This document shows positions 37,621-49,936 of a stretch of 61,764 nt of DNA, in pieces. The notes beneath the pieces are model-generated. The model was not told the origin of the DNA and did not search any database. It saw nothing but the letters and a program-made list of their open reading frames with translations. Position 1 is the stretch's first letter; every line of letters starts with the position of its first letter. A program made the position numbers and the translations under genes. The DNA is from Gemmatimonadota bacterium (lineage in GTDB: Bacteria; Gemmatimonadota; Gemmatimonadetes; Longimicrobiales; Gaopeijiaceae): positions 7,682 to 69,445 of the forward strand of contig JAPPGM010000181.1 in the NCBI GenBank assembly GCA_028874995.1. The letters run 5' to 3'.

Positions 37621-37712
37621 CAGTCCCTTGTGGACCTGCAACCCGGCGTACACTATTGGCTCTTCTCGATGCCATACCGCCCTTGGGGAACAAACGGAGA
37701 TTGAAGAACCAG

Positions 37713-39437
37713 ATGAACCCGCGTCGATTCCTGCAATTCATGCCGCTCCCGGCGGCCCTGCTCGCCACCGCCTGCAACGCCCCTGCCGCCGAAACTCCCG
37801 GAGTCACCGTCGCCCAAGGGACCCTCGAGTCGGGCGGCGGGATGGTGGTTTCGGCCTACCCGCACGCCAGCCGAGCCGGCGCCGAGGTACTGCGGGCCGG
37901 CGGCAACGCCGTGGACGCGGCGATCGCCACCGGGTTCGCGCTGGCCGTCACGCACCCCGCGGCGGGCAACATCGGCGGCGGCGGCTTCATGGTCATCCGC
38001 TTCCCGGACGGGTCCTCGACGGTCATGGACTTCCGAGAGAAGGCGCCGCTCAGGGCCCACCCCGAGATGTTCCTGGACGAGAGCGGCGAGTACTCCTACC
38101 GGATCCACCACCGCAGCCATCTGGCGGTGGGCGTCCCGGGTACGGTGGCGGGCTTTGCACAGGCCCACGAGAAGTACGGCTCCGCGGCGTGGACCGGCCT
38201 GGTGGAACCGGCAGTAGCCCTGGCGCGCGACGGCTTCGAGGTCAGCGAACGCCTGGCGGGTTCGCTGGCCGGACGGCTGGAGGCGTTCCGCGACTACCCG
38301 GCCACCTTCGCCCAGTTCTTCCGCGACGGCGAACCCTACGCTCCGGGCGACACGCTGGTGCAGGCCGACCTGGCGGCCACGCTGGAACGCATCCGCGACC
38401 ACGGCCGCGACGGCTTCTATGCGGGCGAAACCGCACGACTCCTCGCCGAGGAGATGGAGCGCGGCGGCGGCTGGATCACCGAGGAGGACCTGGCCCGCTA
38501 CCAGGCCGTGGAGCGGGAGCCGGTGCGCGGGACGTACCGCGGGTACGACATCATCAGCATGGCGCCGCCGTCCTCCGGCGGGACCGCCCTGGTGGAGATG
38601 CTCAACGTGCTCGAAGGCTTCGACGTGGCCGCGATGGGCGCGAACAGCCCCGCCCACGCCCACCACCTCATCGAGGCCATGCGGCGCGCCTTCCGCGACC
38701 GTGCCGCGCACCTTGCCGACCCCGACTTCTCCGACGTGCCGGTCGCGCGGCTCACCAGCAAGGCATACGCGGCCGAGATCCGCGCCACGATTAAGGCGGA
38801 TGCCGCGAGCGTGTCGGACCCGGACGACGTGGCGGGCGCACCCGGCTGGGAGAGTTCCGAGACCACTCACTATTCCGTGGTGGATGCGGACGGACTGGCT
38901 GTTTCGGTCACCTACACCCTTGAGGGCGGGTACGGGTCGTACATCACGGTGCCGGGTGCGGGCTTCCTGCTGAACAACGAGATGGGGGACTTCAACGCGC
39001 GGCCGGGGCTCACCACCGACCGCGGACTCATCGGCACGGAGCCGAACCTGGCGCGCCCCGAGCAGCGCATGCTGTCGTCGATGACGCCTACGATCCTGGC
39101 CCGCGATGGCGAGCTGGTTGCGGTGGTCGGCAGTCCGGGCGGACGCACGATCATCAACACGGTGCTCCAGATCGTGGTGAACGTGGTCGACTTCGGGATG
39201 TCCCCGGCCGACGCGGTGGCGGCGAAGCGGCTGCATCACCAGTGGCTCCCCGATGCGGCCCGTCTTGAGGACGGCTACATGAGCGAGGACGACGCGGCCG
39301 TGCTCACGGCGATGGGACACCAGATTTCGTGGAGCGGCCGCCAAGGGATCGCGCACTGCATCTTCACGGGGGAGGGCGGGGTGCTGGTTGGGGTGCCCGA
39401 CCCGCGGGATTCGGACGGGACGGCGGCGGGGTACTGA
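37713..39437 (+). CDS. ggt: Gamma-glutamyltransferase
   Basis: 574 aa from ATG 37713 (an upstream ATG at 37656 adds 19 implausible residues). The enzyme cleaves gamma-glutamyl bonds of glutathione and related peptides, usually in the periplasm; a signal segment (PLPAALLATAC) agrees. It is made as a proenzyme that self-cleaves before the first Thr of TTHYSVVDADG, here Thr384. Other family blocks are GGNAVDAAIATGFALAVTHPAAGNIGGGG-type sequence near residue 65, APPSSGGTALVEMLNVLEGFD, and LLNNEMGDFN after the catalytic Thr. The length is typical. It stands alone and converges with glnS. A palindromic operator lies just upstream. Confidence 0.94.
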   Translation: MNPRRFLQFMPLPAALLATACNAPAAETPGVTVAQGTLESGGGMVVSAYPHASRAGAEVLRAGGNAVDAAIATGFALAVTHPAAGNIGGGGFMVIRFPDGSSTVMDFREKAPLRAHPEMFLDESGEYSYRIHHRSHLAVGVPGTVAGFAQAHEKYGSAAWTGLVEPAVALARDGFEVSERLAGSLAGRLEAFRDYPATFAQFFRDGEPYAPGDTLVQADLAATLERIRDHGRDGFYAGETARLLAEEMERGGGWITEEDLARYQAVEREPVRGTYRGYDIISMAPPSSGGTALVEMLNVLEGFDVAAMGANSPAHAHHLIEAMRRAFRDRAAHLADPDFSDVPVARLTSKAYAAEIRATIKADAASVSDPDDVAGAPGWESSETTHYSVVDADGLAVSVTYTLEGGYGSYITVPGAGFLLNNEMGDFNARPGLTTDRGLIGTEPNLARPEQRMLSSMTPTILARDGELVAVVGSPGGRTIINTVLQIVVNVVDFGMSPADAVAAKRLHHQWLPDAARLEDGYMSEDDAAVLTAMGHQISWSGRQGIAHCIFTGEGGVLVGVPDPRDSDGTAAGY

Positions 39438-39595: not shown

Positions 39596-41911
39596 TCAAT
39601 CGCCAGGGTCCGAAAGGATCGCTTCCGCCAACCGGCTCGCCGCCTTCGGATCGGCCTTCCCCCGCGTCCGGCGCATCACCTGTCCGACGAAGAACCCCAG
39701 CAGGCCGGTGCGGCCCTCCCTGAACGCGGCCGCCTTGTCGGGAAACTCCTCGACGAGACCCTCCAGCATGGTGCGCAGCGTCCCCTCGTCGTCGATCTCC
39801 GCGAGATCGGCTGCCGCCCGGGCCTCCTCGAACGAGCCTCCGCGCGTGAGCAGCGCGGCGAGGACCGTGCGGCCCTGACGGTGGGACAGGTCCCCCGAAT
39901 CGACCGCGCGGACCAGGTCGGCGAGAGCCACCGGTTCGAGTCGGCCCGCATCGGCCCGGTCGTCGCTGCCGAGCAGCCTTGTGAAATCATTCACAAGCCA
40001 GGCCGCGATCGATGCCGCCCCCTCGGAATAACGGGCCCGCGCCGCCTCGAAGAGCTCCAATGCCTTTGGTGACCGCACCAGGCTCGCCGCGGCCGCTGCG
40101 CTGACGCCGTTCGATCGGAGGTCCCGGAACCGGCGCCTCTCCTCGTCGGAGCCGAGCGTCTCCCCGGGCGAGAGCGGACGCTGGACGGTCCCGCCGTCAT
40201 CCCCATCGGCCCCCTCCGGGACGGATAGACGGGGTCCGTCGATGCCCGGCGACCCCTTGCGCAAACGCGCTCCCCAGCTGTCCCGCATGGTTACGGTGCG
40301 ATTGAACACGAGCCGGTCCTCCCCCGAGTCCACGGGATCGGAGAAGAAGTACCCGTGCCGCTCGAACTGGTAGTGCGTGCCCGGAGGCGTCCCCGCCACC
40401 CCCGGCTCCACCAGCGCGCTCTCCACGATCCGCTCCGAATCGGGGTTCAGCGCCCCGACGATGTCGTCGGGCGGCGGCTCCGGCACCGCGAACATCCGGT
40501 CGATGAGCCGGACCTCCGCGCGCACCGCCCGGTCCGCCTTCAGCCAGTGGATGATCCCCCGCACGCGGCGTCCCTGCGGGGCCAGGCCGCCCCGGGTCGC
40601 GGGATCGAAGGAGCAGCGCAGTTCGGTCACCCGGCCGGCCTCGTCCTTCACCACCGCGTCGCAGCGGATCGTACACGCGTACTTGAGGCGGACCTCGCCC
40701 CCCGGCCGCAGCCGGTGGAAGCCCGGGGGCGGGGTTTCGGCGAAGTCCTCCCGATCGATCCAGATGTCGCGCCCGAAGGGCAACGCGCGCGTCCCCGCCG
40801 CCCCTCCGTCACCCGGCATGCGCGGCGCGCTGAAGATCTCCTCGCGCCCCGCCGGGTAGTTCGTCAGCACCACCTTCACCGGATCCAGCACGCAGAAGGC
40901 CCTGAGCGCCCGACGGTTCAGATCATCACGCACCGCGAATTCGAACTTCCCGAAGTCCACGCGCGACTGGGTCCGGGCGACCCCCACCATGTCGCACAGC
41001 TTCCGGATCGCCTCCGGCGTGACGCCGCGCCGCCTGAGCCCCGCCAGCGTCGGCATGCGCGGATCGTCCCAGCCCCGCATGTGCCCGGTCCGCACCAGCT
41101 CCTTCAGCTTGCGCTTGCTGGTGATCACGTAGTCGAGGACCAGGGGGGCGAACTCGGTCTGCTCGGGCCGGGGAACCGGCGCGTCGACGTGCACCAGGAG
41201 CCAGTCGTAGATCTCGCGGTTGTTCTCGAACTCGAGGGTGCAGAGCGAGTGTGTGACCCGCTCCACCGAGTCCGACAGGCAGTGCGCGAAGTCGTACATC
41301 GGGTAGATCGGCCAGTCGTCGCCCTGCCGGTAGTGGTGCGAGTGGCGGATGCGGTAGAGCAGGGGATCGCGCATGATCATGTTGCGGTGGGCCATGTCGA
41401 TCTTGGCCCTGAGCACATGGCTCCCGTCGGGGAACTCGCCCGCGCGCATGCGCTGGAACAGGTCGCGGTTCTCCTCGCGGGAGCGGTCCCGGTACGGGCT
41501 ATTGATCCCAGGGGTCGTCACGCTTCCGCGCCGCTCCCGGATTTCCTCCTCGGTCGACGAGTCCACGTAGGCGAGCCCCTTGTCGACAAGCACCAGCGCG
41601 TATCGGTACAACTGCTCGAAGTAGTCGGAGGCGTGGTAGAGGTGTTCCTCCCAGTCGAAGCCTAGCCAGCGGATGTCGCGCTTCATGGCCTCGACGAACT
41701 CGGCCTTCTCGGTGTCGGGGTTGGTGTCGTCGAGGCGAAGATGGCAGCGGCCGCCGTCGTGCTCCGCGGCGAGCCCGAAGTTGAGGCAGATCGACTTGGC
41801 GTGGCCGATGTGCAGGAAGCCGTTGGGTTCGGGGGGGAAGCGGGTGACGACGCGGCCGTCGTACTTCCCCGTCTTCAGGTCCCGCGAAATCATGCTTCGG
41901 ATGAAGTCCAT
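39596..41911 (-). CDS. glnS: Glutaminyl-tRNA synthetase with YqeY-like C-terminal extension
   Basis: 771-aa class I synthetase that charges tRNA-Gln. ATG 41911 (MDFIRSMISRDL) is the family start. HIGH is at residues 34-37 (PNGFLHIGHAKS) and the KMSKS equivalent is VITSKRKLKEL. The catalytic core and two anticodon-binding beta-barrels are followed by an extra domain of about 210 residues with YqeY/GatB-tail character (GVSAAAAASLVRSPKALELFEAA, SIAAWLVNDFTRLL, KAAAFREGRTGLLGFFVGQVMR). A similar C-terminal YqeY domain occurs in Deinococcus GlnRS, where it aids tRNA binding. A 117-bp copy of the 5' end and leader of this gene reappears at 46747-46863. Confidence 0.95.
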   Translation of the reverse strand: MDFIRSMISRDLKTGKYDGRVVTRFPPEPNGFLHIGHAKSICLNFGLAAEHDGGRCHLRLDDTNPDTEKAEFVEAMKRDIRWLGFDWEEHLYHASDYFEQLYRYALVLVDKGLAYVDSSTEEEIRERRGSVTTPGINSPYRDRSREENRDLFQRMRAGEFPDGSHVLRAKIDMAHRNMIMRDPLLYRIRHSHHYRQGDDWPIYPMYDFAHCLSDSVERVTHSLCTLEFENNREIYDWLLVHVDAPVPRPEQTEFAPLVLDYVITSKRKLKELVRTGHMRGWDDPRMPTLAGLRRRGVTPEAIRKLCDMVGVARTQSRVDFGKFEFAVRDDLNRRALRAFCVLDPVKVVLTNYPAGREEIFSAPRMPGDGGAAGTRALPFGRDIWIDREDFAETPPPGFHRLRPGGEVRLKYACTIRCDAVVKDEAGRVTELRCSFDPATRGGLAPQGRRVRGIIHWLKADRAVRAEVRLIDRMFAVPEPPPDDIVGALNPDSERIVESALVEPGVAGTPPGTHYQFERHGYFFSDPVDSGEDRLVFNRTVTMRDSWGARLRKGSPGIDGPRLSVPEGADGDDGGTVQRPLSPGETLGSDEERRRFRDLRSNGVSAAAAASLVRSPKALELFEAARARYSEGAASIAAWLVNDFTRLLGSDDRADAGRLEPVALADLVRAVDSGDLSHRQGRTVLAALLTRGGSFEEARAAADLAEIDDEGTLRTMLEGLVEEFPDKAAAFREGRTGLLGFFVGQVMRRTRGKADPKAASRLAEAILSDPGD

Positions 41912-42106
41912 CGTCGCGCCTGGCCGGATTGGAACGCTCCTGGGAACGACGGAAAAAGTAATCGAACCGGGCGGGGTCCCGCAGGCTGAGCCGTATCGGG
42001 GCCAACCGAACGGGCACCCGAAGCTGCCGGATCGTTCCGCCGCCTCCATAGACACCGCTGCGTCATAGATACCGTCACGGCATAGGTGGCCCGTCATGAA
42101 AGTGTT

Positions 42107-42135
42107 GATTTTTCACCACCCAGTGCGTATATTCA
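42107..42135 (+). promoter_or_regulatory. Sigma-70-like promoter of the BlaI/BlaR1 operon
   Basis: TTGATT (42107-42112), a 17-bp spacer and TATATT (42130-42135). This is the best vegetative-type promoter seen in the window, about 60 bp before the start of the BlaI-type gene. The 286 bp between glnS and that gene otherwise hold the glnS leader and no further gene. Confidence 0.6.
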
Positions 42136-42197: not shown

Positions 42198-42581
42198 ATG
42201 GCCGAGATGCCGCCGCTCAGCCGGCGAGAGCGACAGGTCATGGACATCATCCACGAACTGGGTGGAGCGACCGCGGTTCAGATCCGCAAGCGCATGTCCG
42301 ACCCGCCCACGGACTCCGCCGTGCGGTCGGTACTGCGGATTCTTGTCCGGAAGGGCCACCTGGCGAAGGAGTACGACGCCCCCCGCTACGTCTACTCACC
42401 TCGCATTCCGGCACGCGCGGCCCGCCGCAGCGCGATGAGGCACGTCCTCAAGACCTTCTTCGGAGGTTCGGTCGAAGTAGCCGTTGCCACGCTCATCACA
42501 CTGGAGGAGGGGCCACTCGAAGAGGACGAGCGTGAACGCATCATGGCGTTGATCGAAGAGGCCTCGGAGGAAGGACGATGA
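42198..42581 (+). CDS. BlaI/MecI/CopY-type transcriptional repressor
   Basis: 127-aa winged-helix repressor. ATG 42198 has AGGGGGAAG upstream; an earlier in-frame ATG at 42096 lies upstream of the promoter and is not credible. The DNA-binding part is LSRRERQVMDIIHELGGATAVQIRKRMSDPPTDSAVRSVLRILVRKGHL in family position (residues 6-54). A short C-terminal dimerisation region follows. By family knowledge BlaI proteins bind TACA/TGTA dyads and are cut by a BlaR1-type protease. Here the BlaR1-type gene starts inside the stop codon (ATGA), so both are co-translated. The signal sensed is unlikely to be a beta-lactam (see the next gene). Confidence 0.92.
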   Translation: MAEMPPLSRRERQVMDIIHELGGATAVQIRKRMSDPPTDSAVRSVLRILVRKGHLAKEYDAPRYVYSPRIPARAARRSAMRHVLKTFFGGSVEVAVATLITLEEGPLEEDERERIMALIEEASEEGR

Positions 42582-45382
42582 TGGACTTCCAGTGGGTGGC
42601 CGAATCGGCGCCGCTCCCCGGCTTCGTGATCCGGGCTACGGTCGTATTGGCGACGGGAATCGCCCTTGCGTGGCTCATGCGAAAGAGGTCGGCCCAGGTG
42701 CGTCACCGCCTTTGGACCGCGACCCTGCTCCTCCTCCTGCTCCTTCCGGCCCTGACGCTCTGGGCTCCCCAGTTGGAGATGCCTCTGCTCTCCGTGGCAA
42801 CGCGTGCGGCAACGGAGGCGGGAGCCATGCGGTTGCCGGGTACCTCGCCCGCGGGGTTTGCGGCGGCATCGGGGTCGGGGGCCGCCGCCACGACGCCTCC
42901 ACCTTCCGACATGCCGCTCATGGCGTCGGAGTCTTCAGACCTGGGCCACAAGGCCGCCGCGATCGCCGCGGCGCGCGACGTCGTGGCGGGACCGGCCACG
43001 GGAGCGGATCCGGAGTCCGCCAGTGCACGGAACGCGGATTTCCAACACGGCTCTCCACCGGCGAGGGGATCCGCTCCGGAGCCCGCCGCGCTGCGCGGCG
43101 GAGGGCCCATCGCTTCTTCGAGTCCACGCGCGCAACTGCTGCTGCTATGGGCGCTCGGATGCCTGGGCGGCCTGGTGTCTCTTGCTGTCGGACACCTCCG
43201 CTTCCGCACCCTGGTTCGTCGGGCGCATCCGATCGAGGACCCTCTCTGGATCCGTGACCTGGAAGCCGTCGCATCCCGGCTTGGCCTCCGCCGAGACGTA
43301 CGGCTGCTCGTTGGCGAGACTGCCGGAACTCCGATGACCGGGGGCCTCCGGAAGCCGGTGATCCTCTTTCCTGCGTCCTCGGCGACGTGGGAACCGGAGC
43401 GAAGGACGGTGGTGCTGATGCACGAGGTGGTACATGTGCGCCGGCACGATGCGCTCCGGCAGCTGCTGAGCGGCATCGTGCTCTCGCTCTACTGGTTTCA
43501 CCCGCTCATCTGGATCGCATCCAGGCTGGTGGCGACCAGCCGCGAGGAGGCATGCGACGAGCGGGTGCTGGAGCTCGGCCCGCGGCCTTCGGAGTACGCT
43601 CGACACCTGATGTCCCTGGCCACGGGGAGCACCTCCGCCCGCCTCCCCGTCGCCGCCCTCTCGATGGCCCGGCAATCCCCCTCACGACTGGAGAGAAGAA
43701 TCATGGCCATACTGCGACCTCGCCGCCCGCGCACCAGCGCACTCGTCTCCGGAGCGCTCCTGACGGTGACCGGCCTGCTGGGACTGTCCGCTGCCATCGC
43801 CCATCCGGTTCCCAGGGAACAGGCCGACGCCTCTGCCACCCAGGTCCACCAACCCTCCTCCCGGGAGATCGACGAGGAGAACCCGGCCGCCGCCGTCGCC
43901 GCGGCTGACAGGCAGCCTGAGGCTCACGTCTCTCCTCCCACGGTTGTGGAGACTGCCAAAAGCGCTGGCCGAGGGGTTGCCGAAGCGGGAACGGAGGACG
44001 GTGGGAATGTTGAACCGGGACCGGCCATCGGCGACGGGGCTTCGATCACCGAAGCGGTTGACCGCGGACGAAGCACGGTCCCCGATTCGCCGGACATCGT
44101 CACAGCCGGGTACGACGTGACCGCACCCCCGCCCGTCGATCTGCAGGAGATGAACTGCTGGCCTCCGTCCCCAGGCGAGGAGGAAACCGGAGACACGGTC
44201 CCGGGAAGCCCCCCCATCCCCGTATTCAACGTCCGGACTGTGCCCATCGGCATCGTGCGGGAGGGTGAGGACCAGTTTGCCGTGACAGCCGTCGAAGAGG
44301 TGCAACTCTGCATGCGCGTGCACGGCGAAGTGGATCTTGGGCGCAGCGGGATCCCAACCATCGCCACTGACGGCTGGATCCTCCTCGAATCCGAAGGTGA
44401 GAAGCTCCATCGACTGATTCTGCGGCCGGTGACCAGGCCGCCGGGTGAAGTCGGAATCGAACACTGGTGGAGTGTGGGACGCGAGAATCGGCCCTTCGAC
44501 GAACCGGCCCGGCAGTGGCGGGACGGGATGCTCACCGTGCTCAGGGGCCTCATGGAGATCGATCGGATCTATCATGAGCAGTCGGAGCTTGAGCGCCGGA
44601 TACGGCGTCTGGGTGCGGTGCCGGGACTTGAGGACCAGGCTGCATCCGACCGCGGCGTCGTCGCGGGCCTCCAGCGCCAGGTCGCGTACCACCAGAGCGT
44701 CGTCGCGGACCTGTTGGACGAGATCTCTTACCACCAGGAGGTGCTGTCGGGCCTGCGCGGCGAGATCGCCTATCACCGGGATGTCGTCTCCGGCATGCGC
44801 GCCGAGATCGTGATGCACCGCGCCCGGGTGGCGGCGTTTCAGGAGGTGAAGGCCACATACGAGGCCGAGATCACCGCAATCATCCCGCGCCTGAAGACCT
44901 CCAACTCGGGCGAAAGGGCAGACATCGACCGGAGCATCAAGGCCTGGGAGGAGCGCATCAAGGGCATCGAGGCGCAGATCGAGGCGTACGGCCTGCACGG
45001 GAAGGTCCAGAAGGTCGAGGACAGGATCAAGAGCTACACTCTTGACAGGAGAGTGCGGACGATCGAAGACCGGATCACGGCATATGAGGACTACGCCGGC
45101 CTTCAGAAAATCGAAGCGGAAATCGCGGAAGAGACCGCGCGCCTCGACGAGGTGGCCCGGCGCACCGAGCAGGCGATCATGGCGCGGGCGATGCGGATCC
45201 GGGACACCGTGCAGGATAGTGCGGAGTCTACCAGCACGGACGTGGAGGTCGTGAGACTGGGCGAGATCGCGAGACTGGAACAACAGCTTCGGGATCTGGA
45301 TGCCGACCGAACAATGGAGATAGTCCGGCAGTCGATCGATGAGGCGGGCAAGAAGCTGCTTGAGCTGATTCGCAAACTCTGA
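42578..45382 (+). CDS. BlaR1-type M56 metalloprotease with coiled-coil sensor region
   Basis: 934-aa membrane sensor protease. N-terminal TMs (FVIRATVVLATGIALAWL; TATLLLLLLLPALTLWA) and a later AQLLLLWALGCLGGLVSLAVG precede the M56 domain. Zinc motif HEVVH is at residues 282-286, with a downstream EEACDERVL Glu. The last TM (SALVSGALLTVTGLLGLSAAI) is near residue 390, leaving about 530 residues outside. Classical BlaR1 has a penicillin-binding domain there; none is present. Instead there is an unrecognised segment, then a long coiled coil with four exact 14-residue repeats (YHQ, YHQ, YHR, MHR at residues 704-748), so His 705, 719, 733 and 747 align. It probably cleaves the neighbouring BlaI repressor on an unknown signal. 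Confidence 0.88.
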   Translation: MMDFQWVAESAPLPGFVIRATVVLATGIALAWLMRKRSAQVRHRLWTATLLLLLLLPALTLWAPQLEMPLLSVATRAATEAGAMRLPGTSPAGFAAASGSGAAATTPPPSDMPLMASESSDLGHKAAAIAAARDVVAGPATGADPESASARNADFQHGSPPARGSAPEPAALRGGGPIASSSPRAQLLLLWALGCLGGLVSLAVGHLRFRTLVRRAHPIEDPLWIRDLEAVASRLGLRRDVRLLVGETAGTPMTGGLRKPVILFPASSATWEPERRTVVLMHEVVHVRRHDALRQLLSGIVLSLYWFHPLIWIASRLVATSREEACDERVLELGPRPSEYARHLMSLATGSTSARLPVAALSMARQSPSRLERRIMAILRPRRPRTSALVSGALLTVTGLLGLSAAIAHPVPREQADASATQVHQPSSREIDEENPAAAVAAADRQPEAHVSPPTVVETAKSAGRGVAEAGTEDGGNVEPGPAIGDGASITEAVDRGRSTVPDSPDIVTAGYDVTAPPPVDLQEMNCWPPSPGEEETGDTVPGSPPIPVFNVRTVPIGIVREGEDQFAVTAVEEVQLCMRVHGEVDLGRSGIPTIATDGWILLESEGEKLHRLILRPVTRPPGEVGIEHWWSVGRENRPFDEPARQWRDGMLTVLRGLMEIDRIYHEQSELERRIRRLGAVPGLEDQAASDRGVVAGLQRQVAYHQSVVADLLDEISYHQEVLSGLRGEIAYHRDVVSGMRAEIVMHRARVAAFQEVKATYEAEITAIIPRLKTSNSGERADIDRSIKAWEERIKGIEAQIEAYGLHGKVQKVEDRIKSYTLDRRVRTIEDRITAYEDYAGLQKIEAEIAEETARLDEVARRTEQAIMARAMRIRDTVQDSAESTSTDVEVVRLGEIARLEQQLRDLDADRTMEIVRQSIDEAGKKLLELIRKL

Positions 45383-45391
45383 GGGGGGGTC

Positions 45392-45415
45392 GGTGGCGGG
45401 TGAATGCCCGCCGCC
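45392..45415 (+). terminator. GC stem-loop after the BlaR1-type gene
   Basis: GGTGGCGGG / CCCGCCGCC, a 9-bp stem including one G-T wobble, with a 6-base loop, 10 bases after the stop codon. There is no T tract, so it is at best a weak or factor-dependent terminator. Confidence 0.4.
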
Positions 45416-45442
45416 TCGTCATGGGGTGTGTGCCGGGCCACC

Positions 45443-46726
45443 ATGAACACCAGGAATATCGAAGTGATGGCCAAGACCGGACTTGATCGACGCCATGCGG
45501 CCTGCGGGTGTTTGACTTCCTGCCTGCTTTTCGCCCTGGCAGCGTGCGAATCGTCCCCGGAGCCTCCGGGCATGGAGCGGTCCGATTCCGCCGGCATCCC
45601 GATCTCCACCGCGCTGGCCCCCCTCTGGGGCCCCGGCGAAGGCTGGACGGTCGAGGACGAGCCTCTGGTCCGGATCGGCAACATCGGCGGGCCGCCGGAG
45701 TACCTGCTGGACTGGGTTGTCGGGGCCGTACGCCTGAGTCGCGGCGACATCGTGGTCGGAGAAATGATGAGTGGTGAACTGCGGCGGTTCGACCGGGACG
45801 GCACCTTCGTGTGGCGGGCGGCGGGAAGGGGGGAGGGGCCCGGAGAACATCTGGAGCTGTCGTTCCTGGGCTCGCTCCCGGGGGATTCCGTGGTCACCTT
45901 CGACCATCGCAACAACCGGCTTCAGGTGTTCGGTCCCGATGGCGGCGTATCCCGCACCGTGCCGATGGAATCTCCCTGGCCCGGGTTCAGAGCGACGGAC
46001 GTCATCGGTTTGTCGGAACGTCATCTGGTCATGACCTTTTCCGACTACCGGGGAGAGATGCCGGTTGGTGTGGTGCGGTGGCCGGGGGTGGGGATCGCGA
46101 CCTACTCGCTGGATGATGGTTCCATGCGAGAGTTGATGGCCGTGCCCGGTGGCGAGCAACACATCCAGCGGTACAGCAGCGGGCAAGTCGGGTATACCGC
46201 CTACGAATTCGGCAAGGGGCCCCGGTGGGCGGTGATGCCCGGGCGTCTCGCCGTGGTTGACACGGAGTTCTTTTCCATCAGGTCGGTCTCCCTCGACGAC
46301 GGGTCCACCACGGCGATTCTCCGGCGGAACGACCCCGTGCTGGAGGTCACAAGCGAGCATGTGGATGCCTTCCTCGAATCGATGGTGCGGAGGAACATCG
46401 AGTACGGCGGTTACTCGCGGGAGGAGGCGGAGGCCAGCATACCGTCGTGGCGCGAGCTTCCGATGGCCCCGACCCTTCCGGTCCTCGAGTCGATCCGTCT
46501 CGACGCGGCCGGAAACCTCTGGGTGGAACCGTACTCCCCTCCCGGCACACCGGTGCCGCCGTTCGACGTCTACTCGGCGGACGGCGCCTGGCTGGGTACG
46601 GTCGCGATGCCGCCCCGGCTCGAACTGGGTATCGTCGGGTTGGAGATCGGCGAGGACTACGTTCTGGGCGTGTGGCACGGGGAGCAGGATGTCGAACAGG
46701 TTCGGATGTATCGGCTGCGGAAGTAG
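45443..46726 (+). CDS. 6-bladed beta-propeller lipoprotein (distant paralogue)
   Basis: 427 aa from ATG 45443; ATG 45467 is an alternative with AGGA upstream. The signal peptide ends LAAC, a canonical lipobox, so it is anchored in a membrane. The start MERSDSAGIPIST and the blade motifs (LSRGDIVVGEMMSGELRRFD, GRGEGPGEHLEL, FDHRNNRLQVFGPDGGV, GLEIGEDYVLGVW) place it with the three propellers at 5-9 kb, though it is clearly more diverged. It follows the BlaR1-type gene by about 60 bp in the same direction. A role as extracytoplasmic partner or target of that sensor is an inference from position only. Confidence 0.82.
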   Translation: MNTRNIEVMAKTGLDRRHAACGCLTSCLLFALAACESSPEPPGMERSDSAGIPISTALAPLWGPGEGWTVEDEPLVRIGNIGGPPEYLLDWVVGAVRLSRGDIVVGEMMSGELRRFDRDGTFVWRAAGRGEGPGEHLELSFLGSLPGDSVVTFDHRNNRLQVFGPDGGVSRTVPMESPWPGFRATDVIGLSERHLVMTFSDYRGEMPVGVVRWPGVGIATYSLDDGSMRELMAVPGGEQHIQRYSSGQVGYTAYEFGKGPRWAVMPGRLAVVDTEFFSIRSVSLDDGSTTAILRRNDPVLEVTSEHVDAFLESMVRRNIEYGGYSREEAEASIPSWRELPMAPTLPVLESIRLDAAGNLWVEPYSPPGTPVPPFDVYSADGAWLGTVAMPPRLELGIVGLEIGEDYVLGVWHGEQDVEQVRMYRLRK

Positions 46727-46746: not shown

Positions 46747-46863
46747 CGGGGGGGAAGCGAGTGACGACGCGGCCGTCGTACTTCCCGGTCTCCAGATCCC
46801 GCGAAATCATGCTTCGGATGAAGTCCATCGTCGCGCGTTGTCGGATTGGGACGCTCCTGGGAA
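46747..46863 (-). pseudogene. Duplicated 5' fragment of glnS with leader
   Basis: 117 bp aligned without gaps to 41830-41946 (8 mismatches by eye, about 93% identity). It contains the glnS leader, the ATG (at 46828) and 27 codons (MDFIRSMISRDLETGKYDGR...FPP, with one Lys to Glu change), then diverges abruptly. It lies 20 bp after the stop of the propeller gene, in the same orientation as the true glnS 4.9 kb away. It cannot encode a working enzyme. Confidence 0.9.
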
Positions 46864-48082: not shown

Positions 48083-49936
48083 ATGCCCGGCAAATCAACC
48101 CTCTCCCGCCTCCTCCTCCTGGGCGCCCTCGCCGCCACCCTCGCCACGCCGGCCACCGCCCAGCGCACCCAGAAGCCCGTCCTGCACGGCAAGGACTGGA
48201 TGGCCATCACCGGCAAGCCCCTCGGCGCCACCGCCGGCGCCATGATGTTCCTCAAGGGCGGCAACGCCGTCGACGCCGCGGCCGCCATGCTCGGCGCCAC
48301 CGCCACCATGTGGGACGTGCTCGGCTGGGGCGGCGAGACCCAGGCGCTCATCTACAACCCCGGGACCGGCAAGGTGATCGGCGTCAACGCGCTGGGGGTC
48401 GCGCCCACCGGTGCCACCCCGGAGTTCTTCCACGAACAGGACATGGACATCCCGCCCGCATACGGCCCCCTCGCCGCGGTCACCCCCGGCACCCCCGGCG
48501 GCCTCATGGTGATGCTGGCAGAGTATGGACGCCTCAGCCTTGCCGAGGTCCTGGCCCCGTCGATCGACATGGCGCGCGGCTACCCCATCGAGGCGCAGGC
48601 GGCCGACGCGCTCGAGCGCGAAAAGGAGCGCCTGGCCGGGTGGCCGTACTCGAAGGAGATCTTCCTGCCCCACTTCGGCGAGGAACGCGCCGCCCCCGCC
48701 CCCGGCGAGGTCTTCGTCCAGGAGGACCTCGCGCGCACCCTCGAAAAGCTCGTCGAGGCCGAGGCCGAGGCGCTCGCGGCCGGTGCCTCGCGCAAGGAGG
48801 CCATCATGGCCGCCTACGACCGCTTCTACCGCGGCGACATCGCCGAGGAGTTCGTGCGCGGCTCGCAGGAACAGGGCGGACTCCACACGATGGAGGACCT
48901 CGCCAACTGGCAGGTCTACTTGGAGGAGCCCGTGACCACCTCCTACAAGGGCATCGACGTCTACAAGCTGACCACCTGGGTCCAGGGCCCCGTCCTCCTC
49001 CAGGCGCTCAACATCCTCGAGGGGCTGGACGTGGCCGCGATGGGCTACAACTCAACCCGCTACATCCACGCCGTCTACCAGGCCATGAATCTGGCCTTCG
49101 CCGACCGCGACTTCTACTACGGCGACCCCTACTATCCCCCCGAGGAGCCGATCGCCGGGCTGCTCTCGAAGGACTACGCGGCCGCGCGCGCCGCCGAAAT
49201 CGACTGGGAGAGGAACAATCCGGATGTCCTCCCCGGCGACCCCTATCCCTTCCAGAACGGCACCAACCCCTTCCTGCACCTGATCGAAACGTGGAACGTG
49301 GAGCCGGTCGCGACCCCCGACCCCTCCGGAATGAGCGCCGAAGAAGCCTTCTACGCCGGCACAACCTCCATCCAGGCGGCCGACGCCGACGGATGGGTCG
49401 TGTCGGTCACCCCGTCCGGCGGCTGGATTCCGGCGGTCATCGCGGGCAGGACCGGGATCGGCATGAGCCAGCGCATGCAGAGCTTCGTTCTGGACGAGCG
49501 CGCGGGCCCGTACAACGTCGTCGAGCCCGGCAAGCGTCCCCGCGCCACCCTCACCCCCTCGCTCGCCCTAAAGGACGGCAAGCCCTTCCTCTCGTTCGCG
49601 GTGCAGGGGGGCGACGGGCAGGACCAGAACCTGCTCCAGTTCTTCCTGAACGTGGTCGAGTTCGACATGAACGTTCAGCAGGCGGCCGAGGCGGCCAACT
49701 TCAACAGCTACCAGATGCGCAGCTCCTTCGGCGCGCACGAGTCGCAGCCGGGACGCCTCCTCCTCAACGACGGCGTCTCCGCCTGGGTCCGCGCCGAACT
49801 CCGCGAGATGGGCTACGACCTGACCTTCTCCGCCCGCACCTCCGGCCCCATCAACGCGATCTTCTTCGACGCCGCGACCGGCACGATGTGGGGCGGTTCC
49901 AGCAATCACGGCGAGGACTACGGCATCGCATGGTGA
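48083..49936 (+). CDS. Gamma-glutamyltransferase-family protein (Ntn hydrolase)
   Basis: 617 aa with a clean signal peptide (LSRLLLLGALAATLATPATAQ), so exported. GGT-family blocks are FLKGGNAVDAAAAMLGATATMWDVLGWGG, AVTPGTPGGLMVMLAEYG, GPVLLQALNILEGLDVAAMG and HAVYQAMNLAFADRDFYYGDP (residues about 55-345). The processing site reads GTTSIQAADADGWVVSVTPSGG, so the nucleophile Thr is present but the usual TTH is TTS. The segments after it (IPAVIAGRTGIGMSQRMQSF) differ from classical Ggt. This fits the YwrD-like or acylase-like branch of the family, so the substrate may not be glutathione. It is translationally coupled to an alpha/beta hydrolase and an M3 peptidase downstream. Confidence 0.88.
   Translation: MPGKSTLSRLLLLGALAATLATPATAQRTQKPVLHGKDWMAITGKPLGATAGAMMFLKGGNAVDAAAAMLGATATMWDVLGWGGETQALIYNPGTGKVIGVNALGVAPTGATPEFFHEQDMDIPPAYGPLAAVTPGTPGGLMVMLAEYGRLSLAEVLAPSIDMARGYPIEAQAADALEREKERLAGWPYSKEIFLPHFGEERAAPAPGEVFVQEDLARTLEKLVEAEAEALAAGASRKEAIMAAYDRFYRGDIAEEFVRGSQEQGGLHTMEDLANWQVYLEEPVTTSYKGIDVYKLTTWVQGPVLLQALNILEGLDVAAMGYNSTRYIHAVYQAMNLAFADRDFYYGDPYYPPEEPIAGLLSKDYAAARAAEIDWERNNPDVLPGDPYPFQNGTNPFLHLIETWNVEPVATPDPSGMSAEEAFYAGTTSIQAADADGWVVSVTPSGGWIPAVIAGRTGIGMSQRMQSFVLDERAGPYNVVEPGKRPRATLTPSLALKDGKPFLSFAVQGGDGQDQNLLQFFLNVVEFDMNVQQAAEAANFNSYQMRSSFGAHESQPGRLLLNDGVSAWVRAELREMGYDLTFSARTSGPINAIFFDAATGTMWGGSSNHGEDYGIAW

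Follow-up and report, generated by a model that had tools for sequence, protein, structure and literature searches.

A receptor of the BlaR1 type was identified in the window (the whole stretch of DNA analysed, 61,764 nucleotides, part of contig C185 in the 4.5-Mb, 191-contig assembly G000), which keeps the M56 membrane protease and carries a beta-rich domain and a long, histidine-cored coiled coil in place of the penicillin sensor. By its sequence it is a variant within BlaR1-type signalling and not a BlaR1, since the defining penicillin sensor was searched for and is absent. On balance, the locus probably encodes a proteolytic circuit of the BlaI/BlaR type in which a new kind of sensor, placed in the periplasm, governs a beta-propeller lipoprotein. 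The preliminary description knew of no BlaR1 with such a sensor, and none was found in the open-access literature searched, a search which is incomplete in that most subscription journals and all preprints lie outside it.

Gene organization of the locus

All features lie on the + strand. A candidate BlaI operator, TGTTGATTTTTCACCA (42103..42118), was observed 5' of blaI as a conserved imperfect palindrome with 11/12 matches to TGTTGAN4TCAACA. It overlaps a sigma-70-like promoter, TTGATT-17-TATATT (42105..42133), which was found by consensus scan and whose position is kept in orthologues. The blaI gene (42198..42581), its start set by sequence conservation, encodes a BlaI/MecI/CopY-type repressor of 127 aa (Pfam Penicillinase_R, E=1.9e-22), and its stop overlaps the ATG with which the M56 gene starts. 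This gene (42578..45382) is an ORF call with Pfam and NCBIfam matches encoding the blaR-like receptor of 934 aa. The two genes adjoin in orthologues too, as in M56-BlaI pairs at large, and a BlaR1-type protease working with a BlaI-type repressor had been supposed at the outset. A 6-bladed beta-propeller lipoprotein gene (45404..46726; weak DUF5128 match, E=0.0035) begins 21 nt 3' of the receptor gene, and no terminator was seen in the 21-nt gap.

Two gamma-glutamyltransferase genes (37656-39437 and 48083-49936) flank the glnS-blaI-receptor block, an order that several related genomes share. A 117-nt direct repeat (93%; 41830-41946 and 46747-46863) corresponds to the 5' end of the glutaminyl-tRNA synthetase gene. 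Its second copy and the propeller gene sit in a stretch of ~2.6 kb (about 45.4-47.9 kb), which is missing between the receptor and the gamma-glutamyltransferase in the orthologues L123-L127. The sole full-length relative in the scanned named genome collection was 81% identical and came from a metagenome-assembled genome labelled Gemmatimonadetes.

Protease domain and membrane topology

Peptidase_M56 (Pfam, E=1.5e-36) matched residues 186-378 of the receptor (43133..43711), including the third transmembrane helix, and this domain has 82% mean identity in seven orthologues. The gluzincin pattern was present with HEXXH (HEVVH, residues 282-286, 43421..43435), E323xxxD327 and the conserved Asp D291. 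H282, E283, H286, D291, E323 and D327 were invariant in all seven orthologues and could be aligned to the S. aureus BlaR1 structure 8exs, the region as a whole also aligning to 8exp, which agrees with the earlier view that the protease is intact.

Four transmembrane helices were predicted by hydropathy, at residues 16-34 and 45-63 (together 42623..42766; both also helical in the structure prediction), 187-205 and 389-407 (43742..43798), together with a hydrophobic segment at 296-314 which probably fits the re-entrant element of BlaR1. For BlaR1 itself, a dimer, cryo-EM gave a topology with a re-entrant element and an extracytoplasmic C-terminal domain (PMC9834060). Basic residues stand before residue 389 of the receptor, so the residues after 407 would be extracytoplasmic and presumably periplasmic by the positive-inside rule. 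The four-helix layout with an extracytoplasmic C-terminal domain is therefore that of BlaR1 as judged from hydropathy and basic flanks, its orientation being predicted.

About 530 residues follow the last transmembrane helix, starting with a variable linker (residues 408-544, 43799..44209; 49% mean identity among orthologues over 411-540). Neither a transpeptidase nor a penicillin-binding domain was detected in the receptor by Pfam, where no match beyond M56 reached the curated cut-off, and the NCBIfam model blaR1_generic matched residues 186-380 only, with 77 of 400 bits. Replacement of the penicillin sensor by some 530 residues ending in a coil, as first proposed, was in this way upheld. The same result makes it very improbable that the receptor responds to beta-lactams or wall damage as BlaR1 does, with the EL1 loop or the beta domain as its sensing part. 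The classes of protease and repressor are those of the BlaR1 system and would suit such a role, but EL1 is poorly conserved (0.49), and the gene linked by the operator encodes a beta-propeller, neither a beta-lactamase nor a PBP.

Beta-rich domain and predicted structure of the C-terminal half

A beta-rich domain with the pattern LCMR...GWILLES...HRL...FD..AR.WRD was delimited at residues 545-660 (44210..44557) by alignment and profile matches. It had no Pfam match, and a PDB profile search with it returned nothing convincing (best 2p90, E=0.43). The profile matched 77 of 394 genomes of the class, and in the loci inspected the domain comes after M56. Distant relatives have an alpha-solenoid built of I-x-SD-x-E repeats C-terminal to it; in the receptor's own group the coil stands there.

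AlphaFold2, run on a single chain with an alignment of two sequences only, predicted one helix of ~90 residues (684-774, 44627..44899) which holds the His repeats. Two runs agreed on it, with pLDDT roughly 57-88 in the first. The helix breaks near residue 775 and more helices follow (776-934, 44903..45379), where repeat comparison revealed, from Y804 on, a series of degenerate 16-residue repeats. For the protease and the beta domain these models were of low confidence, and nothing was drawn from them there. The repeat region is predicted to be extracytoplasmic by hydropathy and helical by AlphaFold2, so the case of a cytoplasmic, disordered region, which the preliminary description had named as fatal to its proposal, does not apply by prediction.

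Histidine repeats and the coiled coil

The four 14-residue units (residues 694-749, 44657..44824) are VVAGLQRQVAYHQS, VVADLLDEISYHQE, VLSGLRGEIAYHRD and VVSGMRAEIVMHRA, which are similar and not identical. TRF reported a 42-nt unit with 2.2 copies and 78% match, so the exact repeats of 14 residues (42 nt) described at first had to be given up. His705, 719, 733 and 747 are spaced by exactly 14 residues. Such spacing of four among the nine His of residues 540-934 was reached in 3e-5 of shuffles, or in 1e-3 when any equal spacing of 3-30 was counted. Next comes a fifth unit (750-763), degenerate, in which Tyr takes the place of His.

The heptads were set by the hydrophobic residues, giving V at a, L at d, I/V at a and His at d (V-x2-L-x3-I-x2-H). 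Val or Ile at a, Leu at d and His at every second d follow one another without gap in the AlphaFold helix, the unit of 14 being 2x7, as in a coiled coil. The four histidines had been placed on one helix face with two-heptad spacing; this was right and can be refined, since the unit alignment, the arrays of relatives and the orthologues show His to be a core residue, at d in every other heptad, beyond merely one face. Val/Ile at a together with Leu at d favour a parallel dimer, which the coil would accordingly be expected to form.

That the repeats are mere products of DNA repeat expansion, functionally meaningless, is hardly credible. Unit number does vary among relatives (five in L047 and three in L069, which are otherwise close), but the units are diverged, with position-specific identities and synonymous changes in orthologues at ~50-81% overall identity, and amino-acid change in the coil is no faster than in the protease.

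Conservation of the coil among relatives

Units in relatives were called with a profile blind to positions 1 and 12, which avoids circularity, and 151 units in 29 distinct arrays were obtained. Val was found at position 2 in 121 units, Leu at position 5 in 133, Ile at position 9 in 108 and His at position 12 in 108, with Tyr next (10). His accordingly occupies 72% of the d' sites, where other polar residues, e.g. Asn, are scarce. The arrays carry 1 to 7 core His, and the number of 14-mers is ~1 to 9. As far as these alignments go, the core His is characteristic of the family within Gemmatimonadota.

In a tree of 48 M56 plus beta-domain sequences, the coil group formed a clade of 44 rows (100/100), and the four long-branch outgroups had no core His. 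Homologues without the histidines, which had been named as evidence against a histidine sensor, exist in part. At least one core His is kept in 35/44 clade members, but Tyr stands at the site in 9/44, nested in one subclade (three labels were set by eye, L087 being His, L085 and L077 Tyr), and L120 of genome G118 keeps the 14-mer array, four of its six units carrying Ala at the site and only one His being present. This Ala array is a natural variant for comparison with the core-His arrays. Among the seven closest orthologues, His719, His733 and His747 are invariant (7/7), and position 705 reads H, H, R, Y, Y, R and R. The Tyr and Ala variants, and the Arg or Tyr at 705 in five of seven orthologues, mean that not every layer needs His.

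Mean identity in the seven orthologues was 0.83 for the coil, 0.82 for the protease and 0.67 for the beta domain, and in the coil conservation extends to every face (1.0 and 0.97 at position e). Conservation beyond the need of a pure core, the variable number of 14-mers and the Ala and Tyr variants would suit a coil that is a stalk or partner-binding rod and no sensor by itself, holding the dimer together and binding the beta-propeller lipoprotein (or the wall or outer membrane), with the core His as polar layers fixing register and oligomeric state. Asn layers set the register in other coils. The high share of His at the d' sites, the scarcity of Asn-like residues there and the second His that relatives add at +3 argue against this reading, to which we give a tentative place only.

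This second His, in an HxxH pair, accompanies 66/83 core His outside the receptor's clade versus 0/25 inside it. It could provide as many as four His for each layer of a dimer, and a transition metal (Zn, Ni, Cu) might be bound between the helices by the His array, making the receptor a periplasmic metal sensor. The CopY/TcrY copper-repressor model also matches this BlaI weakly (E=1.4e-9, 38 of 122 bits), but far under its cut-off, and no metal-transport gene was seen beside the locus or at the operator-linked sites. The metal sensing suggested in the preliminary description has lost ground, a metal site being less obvious here than in relatives because HxxH pairs are absent from the receptor's clade, and a dedicated metal sensor is rather unlikely.

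In the C-terminal tails of L055, L046 and further relatives, the 14-mers are succeeded by 16-residue repeats whose core is YDLDGK. An EF-hand-like, calcium-binding reading of them was dropped, as the acidic residues are not kept in the receptor's clade. The numbers of 14-mers and 16-residue repeats co-vary (Spearman 0.83, n=25, outside the receptor's clade; 0.55 over all 32), counts being regex-based, the relatives non-independent and L047/L069 a counterexample. Because of this covariation, the two arrays may pack together.

Operator and predicted regulon

A conserved GTTGA-N4-TCAMC box was revealed over the -35 element in the aligned blaI upstream regions. Among 61 non-identical regions 5' of blaI in M56 loci, 42 contained the fuller form TGTTGA-N4-TCAACA with at least 10/12 bases, a level which for most of them was not attained in any of 200 shuffles. 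In L126 and L128, GTTGA-N4-TCAAC stands twice in tandem 5' of blaI instead of once.

With one mismatch allowed, TGTTGANTTTTCANCA had three sites in the 4.5-Mb genome G000 and none in the reversed control. One lies at this blaI, one at a paralogous blaI on C108, and one 5' of a gene for a 476-aa beta-propeller (DUF5128/NHL) on C37. As the C108 site is part of a paralogous system, there may be cross-talk; the identical 16-mer TGTTGATTTTTCACCA is common to this blaI and the C37 propeller gene only. The 14-base core GTTGANTTTTCAMC had exactly two sites in each of six related genomes (controls 0), one 5' of the orthologous blaI and the other 5' of a beta-propeller gene with a lipobox-like signal. 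In two of the six this propeller is the orthologue of the C37 one (74-76%), and in G007, G022, G011 and G005 it is another one, 55-56% identical to the product of the window gene 45404-46726. Comparison of genomes in this way puts the candidate operator at both the repressor's own promoter and a target promoter, as expected of an M56-BlaI pair. Only the operator version with the TTT spacer was specific; across the genome, the loose pattern TGTTGANNNNTCANCA with one mismatch gave no excess over control (8/7 vs 12/7). The flanking gamma-glutamyltransferase genes were rejected as targets, with no site of one mismatch or fewer beside them in the window.

More distant coil-type loci also have a propeller gene just 3', and there are paralogues in which M56 and such a propeller are joined in one protein. 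Such fusions indicate that the propellers probably act in the same pathway as the receptor, as target, partner or both. Operator-linked and fused propellers would also supply the partner that a binding rod calls for. The distribution of the operator suggests that the BlaI-type repressor and the receptor control the beta-propeller lipoprotein.

Proposed mechanism and significance

In the proposed circuit, the BlaI-type repressor would sit on the TGTTGANTTTTCANCA boxes over its own promoter and that of the beta-propeller lipoprotein. The receptor would anchor the M56 zinc protease in the inner membrane and expose to the periplasm a C-terminal half of the small beta domain and the long coil, whose Val-Leu-Ile-His core has a His layer every second heptad. 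The trigger might be a change in the periplasm that affects how the core His are charged or liganded, or the attachment of a partner (e.g. the beta-propeller). The coil would then repack and act through the last transmembrane helix to switch the protease on, and the active protease would cleave BlaI, releasing the operon and the beta-propeller gene. Of this circuit, sequence comparison establishes how the receptor is built, its catalytic residues, the core placement of His and its conservation across the family, the operator and a regulon of two promoters.

Of the signals, pH or metal sensing by the core His, as first put forward, is plausible; membrane-stress sensing may be extrapolated likewise, as may cleavage of BlaI. 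The more specific form of the proposal is that the periplasmic coil with its stacked core His (1 to 7 layers) is the switch, whose protonation or metal ligation gates the protease and derepresses the beta-propeller lipoprotein, in a family seen only in Gemmatimonadota so far. It is a possibility with the odds against it, and the observations suit a stalk or partner-binding role, with His as the polar layer that sets register, almost equally well.

These genomes have many M56-BlaI pairs that lack a penicillin sensor. In the present family the sensor is conserved, the operator is defined by sequence and the regulon predicted in seven genomes is very small, which makes the question of what the receptor senses directly testable. 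A core-His coil with variable layer number is also a natural case for tunable pH- or metal-dependent helix packing.

Comparison with known systems

The CopY/TcrY copper repressors share the repressor superfamily with this BlaI, with the weak model match given above. CopY binds copper itself and has the operator core TACANNTGTA (PMC7253601), which was not seen 5' of this blaI.

Genome G000 has 17 M56 matches and 12 BlaI-type repressors, four of the M56 matches being on one contig (L013, L015, L016 and L017 on C83), and among its M56 proteins are some whose C-terminal part is a beta-propeller, FGE-sulfatase-like or TonB-like. The protease is also the same in other M56-BlaI pairs of Gemmatimonadota, several of which have a domain related to the beta domain or a site related to the operator. 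They differ in carrying a beta domain with alpha-solenoid, M56-beta-propeller fusions, or TonB-like or FGE-sulfatase-like C-termini, and have no His-cored 14-mer coil.

With the BlaR1/MecR1-BlaI/MecI systems of S. aureus and B. licheniformis, the present pair has in common the M56 membrane zinc protease with HEXXH...ExxxD, the transmembrane layout, the neighbouring BlaI-family repressor and a predicted extracytoplasmic C-terminal sensor. The sensor binds penicillin there, whereas here a beta domain and a coiled coil stand in its place, the candidate operator is TGTTGANTTTTCANCA, and the operator-linked target is a beta-propeller lipoprotein.
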